From a virus: a stretch of DNA of 29,080 bases. Location of the stretch: IMG/VR virus record IMGVR_UViG_3300047551_001300, positions 1 to 29,080 of that record, one strand, 5' to 3'. Of this stretch, positions 23,997-29,080 are shown in pieces (position 1 is the stretch's first letter; each line of letters starts with the position of its first letter). A program made the translations under genes and the position numbers. The notes under the pieces were generated by a model, which worked only from the letters and a program-made list of their open reading frames with translations, was not told the origin of the DNA and ran no database searches.

Positions 23997-24383
23997 ATGA
24001 ACATCTACCAACAATTTGACAGACTGGCCAGTGCAATGTTAGGCACTGGCCAGAAATACACGGAGGTTGCGCAACTGATTGCGCAACTGGAACTAACCGA
24101 CAATCACGCGCAGTCTGTTGAACGCAACACTGAACGCGCTAAAATCGCTGAACAGATAATGCGTGCAATACTGCCGGAAGCGCCGAAAGGGTATCAGATT
24201 GATCCTGCGTGCGGATGGGGCCTGCTGTGGCATAAACAGTACTGGCGCGACCTGTACAGAGGTAAAGACAAAAAACAGGCGGTACTGCTGGCTGAATGGG
24301 TTGCTAAATTCGTCACATCAGGCCGTTATCAAAAATGCCTGTTCATTAAGGACAGGGCAAATACTTCACTCTTTAAAAAGTAA
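23997..24383 (+). CDS. Hypothetical helical protein
   Basis: This 128-residue protein, mostly helical, starts at the ATG at 23997 after an A-rich leader (TTTTTAAAACAAAAACC). An upstream ATG at 23973 would overlap the preceding gene and is less likely. Visible parts are an N-terminal helix pair (IYQQFDRLASAML, YTEVAQLIAQLEL) and a C-terminal half with DPACGWGLLWHKQYWRDLY and KQAVLLAEWVAKFVTS. No catalytic motif was recognised. It sits 7 bases before the SSB-like gene and is probably co-translated with it. Confidence 0.6.
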   Translation: MNIYQQFDRLASAMLGTGQKYTEVAQLIAQLELTDNHAQSVERNTERAKIAEQIMRAILPEAPKGYQIDPACGWGLLWHKQYWRDLYRGKDKKQAVLLAEWVAKFVTSGRYQKCLFIKDRANTSLFKK

Positions 24384-24390
24384 CAACACA

Positions 24391-25365
24391 ATGGATTTCA
24401 GAGAAACTGACGCAATCGAATTACCCGAAAACAACAGCCGACCCTATAGCGGGTTCCTTGAATACAAATCAGGGAAAACACCTGCTACATTCGCGGCATC
24501 TGCAACACCTGAACAGGTGGGCTGTGGTTTCAGCTATTACGACAAGGACAGCAACACACGCCACAGCCTGACATCGTTCAGGGCCATCATCATCGGCCAG
24601 GCGTTCGGTGTAGCAGGTGTGACTAAACTGGGCGACCGGTTCACAAATTACTACAGTAACCTGGTCAGCGACACGCGCACAGATCCGATGCGCGTATTCA
24701 TCAGGGGCATCAATTTCCCGCAGTATTCGGGCCTGTATAAGGACATCAAACCGGCACTGCCGCAGGGTGTAGGATTCCAGCACTATCTGTGCGTGTACAT
24801 CCCTGAGTTAGACGACATGAAACTGATCAGCCTGACAATGGCCCTGTCTGAACACATCAGGTCATCCATCGCAGACAGCGCATCTAAGGCACTGGGCAAA
24901 AACGTGCCACCGTCACGCGTAAATATGTTTGGTCTGTGCGACCTGTCATCCGCGTACTACATGCTGAAATTCACAGGTGGGTATGTCAAAAAGAACAAAG
25001 AAAACGCCATCTGGAACAACGCAGGTGAAATGTACTTCCTGCCTGAACTGCAGGTTAAAACAGTCAACGGTGAGGAACAACTGAAATACCTGGATGCGCA
25101 GGCTGACCGGTTCGGCAACTGGCTGTTCAACGACATCGCACGGAATGTAGATGCGTTCAATTCTGACCGGAAAAACGGCACAGGGCAGCACAATACATCG
25201 GCAGGGCCATCAGCTGGACTATCAGAGGTAGCGCCAGCAACACCTGCAGCGCCTACAGTATCCAACGCAAAGCAGGTCATGATGCAGGCCGGATGGACTG
25301 AACCGAGCATCGAGGATAAATTTCCGATAACAGAACCAATACAGGAATCTGATCTGCCGTTCTAA
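24391..25365 (+). CDS. Putative ssDNA-binding protein with SSB-type acidic tip
   Basis: This 324-residue protein has three parts: a globular region of unknown fold (about residues 1-260), a low-complexity Ala/Pro/Ser/Thr linker (about 262-292, SAGPSAGLSEVAPATPAAPT) and an acidic end finishing in IQESDLPF. A flexible linker plus a terminal D-[IL]-P-F tip is the hallmark of bacterial and phage SSB proteins, which use the tip to recruit repair and replication enzymes. The N-terminal region shows no OB-fold pattern I can recognise. It has basic and aromatic stretches (FTGGYVKKNKENAIWNN). A single-strand annealing role next to the nuclease is an alternative. The ATG at 24391 follows an ACAACACA leader; the frame is open further upstream, but that would overlap another gene. 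Confidence 0.6.
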   Translation: MDFRETDAIELPENNSRPYSGFLEYKSGKTPATFAASATPEQVGCGFSYYDKDSNTRHSLTSFRAIIIGQAFGVAGVTKLGDRFTNYYSNLVSDTRTDPMRVFIRGINFPQYSGLYKDIKPALPQGVGFQHYLCVYIPELDDMKLISLTMALSEHIRSSIADSASKALGKNVPPSRVNMFGLCDLSSAYYMLKFTGGYVKKNKENAIWNNAGEMYFLPELQVKTVNGEEQLKYLDAQADRFGNWLFNDIARNVDAFNSDRKNGTGQHNTSAGPSAGLSEVAPATPAAPTVSNAKQVMMQAGWTEPSIEDKFPITEPIQESDLPF

Positions 25366-26351: not shown

Positions 26352-26629
26352 ACGACATGAATGAACCTGTCAATGACATGGATCCGGTTGATTACAAAGA
26401 TTTTGCTGACCGGTCAACATCGCTATTATCATACTACGCAGTCAGTCTGGTTAATGCTGTTGTAAATGGCAAAGAATTGACGCAAAAGGCGCAGAAATTT
26501 GATGAGGACGCTGTGAATATTTTTGACAAAACAGGGCAGCTATTTTTTGCTAAACTAAGGAGCCAGAACCTGCCGGATGCGTTTATTGACGAAACGCATA
26601 TTGCGATTTGGGCTATCCAGAGTATTTGA
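26348..26629 (+). CDS. Hypothetical acidic helical protein
   Basis: This 93-residue acidic protein is predicted to be helical (STSLLSYYAVSLVNAVVNG, KELTQKAQKFDEDAVNIFDK), with no signal peptide, membrane segment or known motif. The start codon overlaps the preceding stop (ATGA). An imperfect repeat of NDMNEPVNDMDPVD lies at its N-terminus. It ends just before an AT-rich ORF in another frame. The function is unknown; the tight overlap supports it being a real gene. Confidence 0.55.
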   Translation: MNDMNEPVNDMDPVDYKDFADRSTSLLSYYAVSLVNAVVNGKELTQKAQKFDEDAVNIFDKTGQLFFAKLRSQNLPDAFIDETHIAIWAIQSI

Positions 26630-26643
26630 AGTTCAGGGAGTTT

Positions 26644-27066
26644 ATGATGAAATTTCCCGATTTTGGAATGGCGAGTGCAGAGGCAATCCTTTTGAATAGT
26701 CTTCACAAAGGGCAATTTACATCAAAATCAAACGAACTGAAGAGCGACACCAACAAAGACGGAAGTTACATGGTAAAGTATTTCCAGGAGGGCGACCTTG
26801 TAATACCTAACTATGAAATGTCTATCGAAAATGCTGAAAAGATAATGATGATAAAGCCATATTATGAAGGCTTTGGCAGGGCAATATTTGTCATCGCAAT
26901 GCTCGGTATTTTCAGAATCGAGTACTACTCGCATTCAAGGCTGATAGAAAGATTGGCCGCAAATCCGACAGCATTGCAGCACTGTGCAAATATAACTCAG
27001 TACAAATTCCTGATTGAGGACATCTACAATTTCAGGAGCCGGGAAAAAGTTTCACTAAGGTTTTGA
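26644..27066 (+). CDS. Hypothetical protein
   Basis: This 140-residue protein of unknown function starts at the ATG at 26644, 14 bases after the preceding stop. The frame is also open to a TTG at 26608, which would overlap that gene. Visible parts are a helical start (MMKFPDFGMASAEAILLNSL), a central beta part (YMVKYFQEGDLVIPNYEMS), a hydrophobic stretch RAIFVIAMLGIFRIEYYSHS (about 80-99), possibly a buried strand or helix rather than a membrane span, and a basic end. Base composition is more AT-rich than upstream. Confidence 0.6.
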   Translation: MMKFPDFGMASAEAILLNSLHKGQFTSKSNELKSDTNKDGSYMVKYFQEGDLVIPNYEMSIENAEKIMMIKPYYEGFGRAIFVIAMLGIFRIEYYSHSRLIERLAANPTALQHCANITQYKFLIEDIYNFRSREKVSLRF

Positions 27067-27367: not shown

Positions 27368-28075
27368 ATGCCACTATCAGAAATTTACAACACCGACTGC
27401 CTGGCCGCCATGCGCGAAATGCCCGACAATGCCTTTGATTTGGCGATTGTTGATCCACCGTATGGGATTAATGCGGCAAATTTATTTTCAGGCGAAAAAC
27501 GAAAATCCGGAAATGGGGCCGCCATGAAATCATCGTTTGCAAAAAAAGACTGGGACGAATCAGTTCCTAATGATGAATATTTTTTTCAACTATTCAGAGT
27601 ATCAAAAAATCAAATAATATGGGGTGCAAATTATTTTAAAAATATGCCTCCATCTATGGGGTATATTGTCTGGGATAAAAATAATGGAACTACTAAATTT
27701 TCAGACTGTGAATTAGCATATACATCATTTAGTGTGGCAATCAGGAAATATACATATACATGGAATGGCATGATACAGGGCGACATGAAAAATAAAGAAA
27801 ACAGAATCCACCCCACCCAAAAACCAATTGCCCTATACAAGTGGCTCCTGCAGAATTACGCGAAGCCGGGAGATACTATACTCGACACACACCTGGGCAG
27901 CGGCTCCTCCCGGATAGCCGCGTATGACATGGGTTTTGACTTTGTGGGGTACGAACTTGACACCGAATATTTTGAAGCATCAGACAGGCGCTTTAAAAAC
28001 CACATCAGCAATTTGCAACTGTTTCAACCTGCTGAAATGTACCAAAACGAACAAAAAAAACTGTTTGAAACGTGA
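27368..28075 (+). CDS. Site-specific DNA methyltransferase (N6-adenine, beta class)
   Basis: This 235-residue enzyme should transfer a methyl group from S-adenosylmethionine to adenine in DNA. Motif IV DPPY is at residues 29-32 (LAIVDPPYGIN) and motif I, the SAM-binding loop, comes later at 171-180 (ILDTHLGSGS), the order of the beta class. HPTQKP (148-153) is a family hallmark of N6_N4_Mtase. DPPY favours adenine over cytosine. No restriction enzyme gene is nearby, so it is an orphan enzyme, perhaps protecting phage DNA from host restriction. The target sequence cannot be read from the protein. Its start has the leader ACACAACGTC, identical to the gene at 23399. Confidence 0.93.
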   Translation: MPLSEIYNTDCLAAMREMPDNAFDLAIVDPPYGINAANLFSGEKRKSGNGAAMKSSFAKKDWDESVPNDEYFFQLFRVSKNQIIWGANYFKNMPPSMGYIVWDKNNGTTKFSDCELAYTSFSVAIRKYTYTWNGMIQGDMKNKENRIHPTQKPIALYKWLLQNYAKPGDTILDTHLGSGSSRIAAYDMGFDFVGYELDTEYFEASDRRFKNHISNLQLFQPAEMYQNEQKKLFET

Positions 28076-28091
28076 AAATCCCTTATCTTTG
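28064..28091 (+). promoter_or_regulatory. Promoter ahead of the structured RNA and replication genes
   Basis: TATCTTTG (28084-28091) is a consensus -7 element. TTTG (28064-28067) lies 16 bases upstream, shorter than the usual 19 or so, inside the end of the methyltransferase gene. Transcription would start near 28096 and enter the structured region. Confidence 0.6.
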
Positions 28092-28237
28092 CACTGCCTA
28101 ACAGGCCGCTGAATTGGTAACTCAGTGTAAGTTAACTAATCATAATTACAAAAACGCCTGTGACGGGCGGGTACTGCGTTTTAGTTAACGGCGCAGATGG
28201 CATACCAAAGCCGCCCACCGTCACAGGCGTTTTTTTA
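28092..28237 (+). ncRNA. Candidate structured RNA / attenuator with complementary loops
   Basis: Several pairings are visible. CTGA/TCAG (28109-28112 and 28122-28125) form a small hairpin. TGTAA/TTACA (28126-28130 and 28146-28150) enclose a 15-base loop. A long stem has ACGCCTGTGACGG (28154-28166) against its exact complement (28218-28230), continued inside by GCGG/CCGC, GTA/TAC and CTGCG/CGCAG up to a 13-base loop. GTTAACTAA in the first loop (28131-28139) is exactly complementary to TTAGTTAAC in the second (28181-28189), allowing a 9-bp kissing interaction. A run of seven T follows the long stem. It lies between a promoter and the replication genes. Confidence 0.55.
28151..28237 (+). terminator. 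Long terminator-like stem ahead of the replication genes
   Basis: The outer stem has 13 perfect pairs (28154-28166 with 28218-28230), extended by A-T pairs, and ends in TTTTTTT (28231-28236 and the last stem base). It is the terminator half of the structured RNA. The next ATG lies about 10 bases after the T run, so read-through here would control expression of the downstream genes. Confidence 0.65.
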
Positions 28238-28246
28238 TTTGCAAAA

Positions 28247-28498
28247 ATGATGAAAACAATTTACAGGCAATCGCCTCCATTCTTCACGATGGATAACGAC
28301 ATTTTTGACGGATGGGATAGTCCCGGTGGAGCCTTTCACCCGCTTGTAATTGCGGTTTACGCTTTTGTCTGTTACAAAGACGGAAATGTTAACGAATCTG
28401 ACATAAAGAAGGCTTTTAAATTTGAAGAGTCAGAAGTAATTGACACCGCAATTAGTATTCTTCAGTCACTTGAACTTATTGTCATTGTAAACCAATAA
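28247..28498 (+). CDS. Small protein with possible winged-helix fold
   Basis: This 83-residue protein starts at the double ATG at 28247/28250. The frame is open back through the RNA hairpin to a GTG at 28160, but that part is an unlikely coding region. Residues 28-78 look like a winged-helix domain: FHPLVIAVYAFVCYKDG, then NVNESDIKKAFKFEESE as the turn and recognition helix, and AISILQSLELIVIV as the wing. This resembles the N-terminal half of the next protein, and the two genes are 3 bases apart. It probably binds DNA or regulates replication. Confidence 0.6.
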   Translation: MMKTIYRQSPPFFTMDNDIFDGWDSPGGAFHPLVIAVYAFVCYKDGNVNESDIKKAFKFEESEVIDTAISILQSLELIVIVNQ

Positions 28499-28501
28499 AC
28501 C

Positions 28502-29080
28502 ATGAGCACAGTAGTCAATAAATCACCGCGCAAAGGCTTTACAGCCATAGATAACAACGCAGTCAGGGATAACCGATTGAGGCTTAAAACACGTGGGCTT
28601 TTGGCCTACATTATGTCGCTTCCACCGGGATGGACATTGAACCTGCAATGGCTGCAAAAGCAGACAGGCGAAGGCCGTGAATCAATACAGGGCTGTTTCA
28701 AAGAGCTGTCAACTTATGGCTATGCAAAGCTGCTGAAGCCACAAAACGAAAGCGGGCAATTTAACGGCTCAAGGTGGACGGTTACGGATGTTCCTGGAAA
28801 CTTCGGGGAAGATCAGGATGCAGCCGAAAGCGCTGTTTTTGGGCAAAATATCGAATCCGACCAACTTTCAAAGCGACAACCGGAAAACCCGATGGCCGGA
28901 AAACCCGTCTGTGTAATTAATAAGAAAGAATATAAGAAGAAAGAATATAAAGAAGAAAGAGAGAGAGAAGCACTCTCTGAAAAACCGCAACCGATACAGG
29001 AAATTCCTTCACAGCTCAAAGAAGAAAAAAGCGCCGCAGGCAGAGGGCAGGCGGCGGCCACATATTACGAAAAAGCGCAA
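28502..29080 (+). CDS. Phage replisome-organiser-like protein, cut by the window edge
   Basis: The reading frame starts at the ATG at 28502 and is open for 193 codons to the right edge, so the C-terminus is missing. Residues about 18-78 form a helix-turn-helix/winged-helix domain typical of phage replication proteins: NAVRDNRLRLKTRGLLAYIM, PPGWTLNLQWLQKQTGEGRE, then a helix with CFKELSTYGYAKLLK. Such proteins bind the phage origin and load helicase. A flexible middle includes a repeated Lys/Glu/Tyr segment (KKEYKKKEYKEERERE) encoded by a 15-base direct repeat. Position after a regulated leader fits a replication initiator. Confidence 0.75.
   Translation, partial: MSTVVNKSPRKGFTAIDNNAVRDNRLRLKTRGLLAYIMSLPPGWTLNLQWLQKQTGEGRESIQGCFKELSTYGYAKLLKPQNESGQFNGSRWTVTDVPGNFGEDQDAAESAVFGQNIESDQLSKRQPENPMAGKPVCVINKKEYKKKEYKEEREREALSEKPQPIQEIPSQLKEEKSAAGRGQAAATYYEKAQ
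28922..28982. repeat. Purine tract with 14-bp direct repeat inside the replication gene
   Basis: AAGAAAGAATATAA occurs at 28922-28935 and 28937-28950, followed by a GA-repeat (to about 28970) that can pair with the CTCTCT at 28973-28978. Phage replisome organisers often have their origin inside their own gene, as in lambda O, so this could be part of an origin. It could equally be codon repetition for a charged linker. Confidence 0.5.

Follow-up and report, generated by a model that had tools for sequence, protein, structure and literature searches.

The window analyzed here is the whole 29,080-bp IMG/VR record of a tailed phage, which encodes a terminase, an endolysin, ThyX, and an exonuclease. 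A gap runs from the stop codon of a DNA methyltransferase gene (28075; N6_N4_Mtase) to the start of an 83-amino-acid (aa) open reading frame (ORF) at 28247, behind which lies a replication initiation gene, and in this gap we found a promoter, a structured leader RNA, and an intrinsic terminator. Farther upstream, a conserved 324-aa protein is encoded at about 24240-25365, downstream of an exonuclease VIII-like gene and in the position of a recombination partner; it has no Pfam match and only a weak match to phrog_6706 (unknown function), and it was used as a synteny marker in the search for relatives. The window ORF at 26608-27066 corresponds to no more than the C-terminal ~150 aa of a ParB-like protein (257 aa) in a related phage (L019) and is without the N-terminal half, possibly being a truncated or replaced gene. 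The features of the locus are as follows, where members are the window and its relatives that carry the RNA, and L375 is a divergent one.

28064-28091, plus strand: Bacteroidota-type promoter, TTTG at 28064-28067 and −7 box TATCTTTG at 28084-28091, called from sequence and present in nine of nine members
28092-28236, plus strand: whole leader RNA, a predicted transcript of ~140 nt, matched by covariance models R1/R2
28096-28106, plus strand: P0 hairpin, GCCT 28096-28099 with AGGC 28103-28106, pairs nearly invariant and kept in L375
28107-28127, plus strand: P1 hairpin, CGCTGA 28107-28112 with TCAGTG 28122-28127, loop ATTGGTAAC, three of six pairs changing on both sides
28114-28119, plus strand: 5′ strand of the pseudoknot PK2, TTGGTA in the P1 loop, TGGT/ACCA in eight members and TGGGAA/TTCCCA in L375
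28131-28139, plus strand: 5′ strand of the pseudoknot PK1 (strand A), GTTAACTAA, hypervariable, covarying with the apical loop in nine members
28150-28166, plus strand: 5′ arm of the terminator stem P2, replaced by CCCGAAGAG/CTCTTCGGG in L375
28169-28172, plus strand: 5′ strand of the middle helix, GGGT, pairing with 28213-28216, GUAGG/CCUAC in L375
28174-28196, plus strand: P3 apical hairpin, CTGCGTT 28174-28180 with GGCGCAG 28190-28196, six of seven pairs changing on both sides
28181-28189, plus strand: 3′ strand of PK1 (loop B), apical loop TTAGTTAAC, hypervariable, covarying with strand A
28199-28212, plus strand: P4 hairpin, GGC/GCC, loop ATACCAAA including the PK2 3′ strand TACCAA at 28203-28208
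28218-28236, plus strand: P2 3′ arm and T7 run of the intrinsic terminator, T-run in nine of nine members
28247-28498, plus strand: 83-aa ORF of unknown function, the first gene past the terminator, ATG 10 nt after the T-run
28502-29080, plus strand: replication initiation protein, cut by the record end (phrog_4707, E 4e-19)

Exact-pattern scans of IMG/VR returned at least seven relatives besides the window (L015, L019, L023, L024, L046, L062, and L248); the choice of patterns skews how conserved the 3′ half of the RNA appears. The ninth member, L375, lies on a 96-kb contig that was fetched by synteny, through a distant relative of the protein encoded upstream of the RNA and not by RNA sequence, and the covariance model R1 then detects the RNA in it (E 2e-7). 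A model-guided alignment was used for L375 because MAFFT misaligns it. More members probably exist beyond these nine, all of which are metagenomic and from uncultured Bacteroidota phages; together with four sequences of a second leader type described below, they form the basis of the analysis. The weak R1 match in the gut phage MT835658 (L377 7290-7340; E 9e-5) proved to be an ordinary GCCTGC/GCAGGC terminator, and a CGCCTG/CAGGCG stem may be a common Bacteroidota terminator core. In Cellulophaga phage phi39:1, R1 matched nothing, and visual inspection of one intergenic gap showed no leader of this kind. No relatives were found by blastn of the window leader against INPHARED and PLSDB or of the L248, L062, and L375 leaders against INPHARED, and no member occurs in the 86 GTDB stretches that contain the conserved 17-mer. 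Likewise, 398 Bacteroidota genomes contained neither an R2 match nor the upstream marker protein, the RNA search being run under strict filters and without a positive control.

An earlier note, made from the letters of this DNA alone, had described a promoter element and, ahead of the replication genes, a folded RNA about 140 nt long, and both parts of that description hold. Using the Bacteroidota consensus for the box calls (PMC7366714), we found a TAnnTTTG box immediately 5′ of the RNA in every one of the nine members. A T-run of at least five is kept in every member, and a start codon follows it within about 15 nt. No box of this promoter type, the only one sought, was found between the terminator and the start codon in the nine members, nor on the antisense strand (0/9) from the leader through the 300 nt that follow the T-run. 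In each case, the terminator separates the sole promoter box found from the first start codon. This arrangement makes a choice between termination and read-through, as the note had suggested, plausible. In the window, the long stem comprises 17 pairs (28150-28166 with 28218-28234) and ends in U7 at 28230-28236, which bears out the long stem with a T run that had been noticed before. Read on the minus strand, 28150-28236 has an A-run before the stem and a T-run after it and could terminate from both directions.

The genes that follow the leader differ among phages. The first may be the 83-aa ORF, whose homologue also opens the downstream genes in L370, an HTH_36 protein, or a DUF4326 protein, and in some members the initiator itself comes first. 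The upstream genes vary as well. Since a kinase-like protein and a DnaB-type helicase come after this varying first gene (L369, L019, L370, L024, and L368), the leader belongs to an operon rather than to a single gene.

The hairpins P0 and P1 come first in the predicted architecture, followed by the terminator stem P2, which encloses a short middle helix and a three-way branch that gives rise to P3 and P4. The fold of the window sequence was far more stable than that of its shuffles (z −5.7, 0 of 200 shuffles), in line with the hairpins reported earlier. Across eight sequences, pairing holds in 95.5% of the helix cells, with both sides altered in ten pairs; 0 of 500 shuffles matched these values, and slid versions were only 35 to 51% paired. 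The P2 and P3 helices of L375, with AAAGCG/CGCTTT in P3, are very unlike those of the window, yet again complementary. Conservation thus reaches beyond the hairpin and T-run that a plain terminator would keep, as P1, P3, PK1, and PK2 are all retained with compensatory changes. Searches with the Rfam 15 covariance models gave chance-level matches only, far below the gathering scores, and we likewise see no known riboswitch or ribozyme here, as the note had judged. On sequence comparison, then, the leader is an undescribed RNA family with a covariation-backed double-pseudoknot fold. An open frame, MA[Y/N]QSRPP[S/L]QAFF, occurs in the 3′ half of the RNA (window 28197-28250, and in L015, L024, and L046) and is in frame with the downstream gene in some of these only; we judged it incidental. 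A leader peptide starting MA[Y/N]QSRPP was accordingly rejected, its ATG being absent in L062 and its frame relative to the downstream gene not being kept.

In PK1, the 9 nt of strand A are exactly complementary to the apical loop in the window, as had been noted. By dinucleotide shuffling of the upstream stretch, a 9-nt complement arises by chance in 0.2% of cases. Complements of at least 7 nt arise in 6%, so the single window sequence is only suggestive, and because a single-sequence scan found terminators with 7- to 10-nt upstream complements elsewhere in these phages too, complementarity in one genome proves little. The case is made by the relatives. The pairing is kept in all nine members with nine different sequences, being perfect over 7 to 9 bp in eight and interrupted by one C-C mismatch in L019. 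In the core, 62 of 63 pairs over the nine members are Watson-Crick, with two to four pair types per core position, and among the 362,880 assignments of a permutation test the true one alone reaches the observed count. Compensatory changes among relatives, in the stem and in both loop segments, were what the earlier note had proposed to look for, and they are present.

The note had called this contact a pair of kissing loops. For the pair it reported, the term does not apply: the predicted fold leaves 28131-28139 as a single-stranded linker, and PK1 is a loop-to-linker pseudoknot on this model. A true loop-loop pair, which it had missed, exists elsewhere in the RNA as PK2, where the P1 loop (28114-28119) pairs with the P4 loop (28203-28208). 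In L375, PK2 shows a compensated change, with a U-A to G-C replacement and an added A-U. As judged from the alignment, PK1 is strongly and PK2 moderately supported, the latter being the weaker as it rests on one divergent member. In the window, PK1 pairing extends up to the P3 stem and no farther, which fits a loop contact rather than strand displacement.

Strand A and loop B are also hypervariable. Among the close relatives L015, L019, L023, and L024, PK1 differs at 4 to 10 of 16 positions with complementarity kept, the RNA outside the linker and apical loop differs at 0 to 1 of 113 positions, the other 78 paired columns change at 0 to 1 positions, and the downstream coding DNA is about 93 to 98% identical. 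No member's strand A pairs perfectly with the loop B of another. Predicted duplex energies average −6.1 kcal/mol for cognate A/B pairs and −0.1 kcal/mol for non-cognate ones, of which single pairs reach −5 kcal/mol. By analogy with the loops that set plasmid incompatibility, a pairing sequence that shifts on a fixed scaffold is the pattern one expects of intermolecular recognition; recombination at a module boundary or a relaxed sequence constraint could also produce it. In the sequence examined, the only other intraphage target of A or B was one 8-mer (L370), which is about the chance level, and the natural partner is therefore the RNA itself.

The reading that we favor, while granting it slightly less than an even chance, is that this new family of ~140-nt leader RNAs serves as a conditional terminator (attenuator) of the replication operon, with the A/B pairing as a self-recognition code. 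The promoter, the fold (P0 to P4 and two pseudoknots), and the T-run would act as one unit, and we infer that termination is conditional, so that the replication genes would be expressed only upon read-through. Strand A and loop B would pair in the nascent RNA before the last terminator arm and thereby influence terminator closure; as the A:B helix would put the 5′ arm of P2 in a closed loop, it could delay this closure. Moreover, the short terminated RNA of one genome may contact the nascent leader of another that carries the same allele, tipping the balance of termination. The outcome would be a dosage feedback or the exclusion of identical phage, and both lowered and raised expression of the replication genes are conceivable. 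Any such action in trans would require pairing between strand A and loop B of two different copies. The self-complementary GTTAAC, to which the note had tied a possible action in trans, does not fit this role, since the palindrome is peculiar to the window and the strands of the other members are not palindromic. Self-recognition is the most likely use of the A/B pairing as read from the alignments, because the two segments are hypervariable, always matched, and without a perfect cross-match between members.

Prefix folding is partly in line with such a course. The A:B helix is in the best predicted nascent structure before the last terminator arm in L046, L062, L375, all four leaders of the second type, and, with the register displaced by 3 nt, L248; once the RNA is complete, the terminator is favored. 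At the same nascent stage, the window and its four near kin instead pair their 5′ end with the 5′ arm of P2, so no single antiterminator is conserved; an antiterminator competing for P2 was predicted in only five of the nine members and not in L046, L062, L248, or L375. The predicted energy of PK1 is about −6 kcal/mol versus −47 kcal/mol for the terminator hairpin, and PK1, being so weak beside the terminator, could act only kinetically or with help.

The second leader type was met in L039, which was reached via its initiator protein, has no R1 match, and yet carries a different folded leader before its initiator. This leader is 74% identical to one in cultured Flavobacterium "elemo" phages, where it lies between a recombination operon (ERF protein and exonuclease) and the genes for a replication protein and a primase/helicase. 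In each variant of this type, the loop of a 5′ hairpin pairs over 7 to 8 nt, as read by eye, with a loop that is part of the terminator hairpin (TGAGAGC/GCTCTCA, GTGAGATG/CATCTCAC, GTGGAGG/CCTCCAC, and GTGAGAGA/TCTCTCAC), and non-cognate loops still pair fairly well in prediction. Since the same theme recurs in a different fold, we argue that variable self-pairing is functional. Two elemoA isolates of one host strain are 93 to 100% identical in the 600 bp on either side of the leader and, elsewhere across 7 kb, at least 91% identical in every 100-bp bin; in the two leader bins, their identity is 70 to 72%. At least three leader alleles occur among the Elemovirus isolates of one host strain (L384 = MT497097 and L385 = MT497074; also L380 to L383).

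A broader version of the favored reading, which we consider rather unlikely, is an RNA-only self/non-self code in Bacteroidota phages without signs of lysogeny. The terminated leader would set the replication-gene expression of a co-infecting genome of the same allele, diversifying selection would produce numerous alleles without cross-matches, and the principle would have arisen in at least two RNA folds. If A/B pairing does act between genomes, it would give apparently non-lysogenic phages an RNA-based means of incompatibility or of superinfection control; to our knowledge, such control is known only from P4/P1-type elements and plasmids. A self-code could be tested directly in the cultured elemo phages, whose natural leader alleles occur on one host strain, and the A/B segments found in nature also provide RNA pairs with mutual specificity.

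Among the competing explanations, an attenuator acting in cis only fares best, and we rate it as possible, at clearly less than the favored reading. Here a phage or host protein or another signal would read the leader, and PK1 would be a strut free to drift, with no RNA acting in trans. The evidence of placement and fold serves this explanation equally, and a strut needs pairing alone, so its sequence may vary. However, change at 4 to 10 of 16 PK1 positions against 0 to 1 in the 78 other paired columns goes beyond what drift of a single free helix would readily explain, and the elemo phages swap their leader alleles whole. It is improbable that the leader is instead a stand-alone phage small RNA with host or phage targets, for which the terminator would be the 3′ end and the downstream genes would depend on leaky read-through. 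It is indeed compact and structured, with its own promoter and terminator and a first downstream gene that varies; on the other hand, the start codon close behind the T-run in all nine members, the lack of a promoter box of the type sought in between, and the chance-level recurrence of A and B in the sequence examined speak for a link to the operon and against other targets.

Processive antitermination, in which the nascent RNA would modify the polymerase to pass this terminator and later ones, was considered by analogy with HK022 put and the Bacillus EAR RNAs, which are structured, sometimes pseudoknotted RNAs at the head of or within an operon. A pseudoknotted RNA heading a long co-directional operon would suit this type. 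However, we know of no put or EAR RNA with a strong conserved terminator of its own or a hypervariable self-complementary pair, and hypervariable pairing is unexpected for a polymerase contact, which makes this explanation highly improbable. An ordinary terminator with a chance complement between loop and linker, tempting as the good hairpin and T-run and the frequency of similar complements in shuffles and at other terminator-like sites may make it, is already refuted by covariation, given nine different complementary pairs at corresponding positions and the covariation of other variable helices, and retains next to no likelihood.

Several known systems resemble the conditional terminator that we propose. 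In the pT181 and pIP501 attenuators, an intrinsic terminator lies just before the rep start codon and is controlled by a separate antisense RNA (PMC5703833). The leader shares with them a terminator hairpin directly upstream of a replication gene start, RNA-RNA specificity, and, by our reading, a fold that would decide between termination and read-through. In contrast to these attenuators, in which the antisense RNA comes from an opposing promoter and a pre-emptor sequence takes part, the leader has no antisense TAnnTTTG box and no conserved pre-emptor, and both complementary segments lie in one transcript. CopA/CopT and RNAI/RNAII loops set plasmid incompatibility, and their hypervariable loop pairs stay complementary on a fixed scaffold; the partners there are the sense and antisense RNAs of one locus, whereas the leader partners are segments of one RNA.

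The CI RNA of P4 derives from the untranslated leader of the replication genes and pairs with complementary leader sites, which leads to premature termination and immunity (PMC4825925). As in P4, a leader segment is complementary to another site of the same leader (PK1, in all nine members), and by this analogy the CI RNA is the nearest functional analogue of the leader. No sequence relation between the two emerged from the Rfam search, in which the leader matched no family at the gathering score, and while P4 depends on a processed antisense RNA and a lysogenic state, the leader has an intrinsic terminator within the RNA and occurs in phages with no sign of lysogeny in the 398 Bacteroidota genomes searched. 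The C4 RNA of P1/P7 is grouped with the P4 CI immunity RNA as a related system. From these comparisons, we infer that the leader, belonging to neither the pT181 type nor the P4 type, represents a new RNA family built on a known principle, the RNA-controlled attenuation of replication genes.
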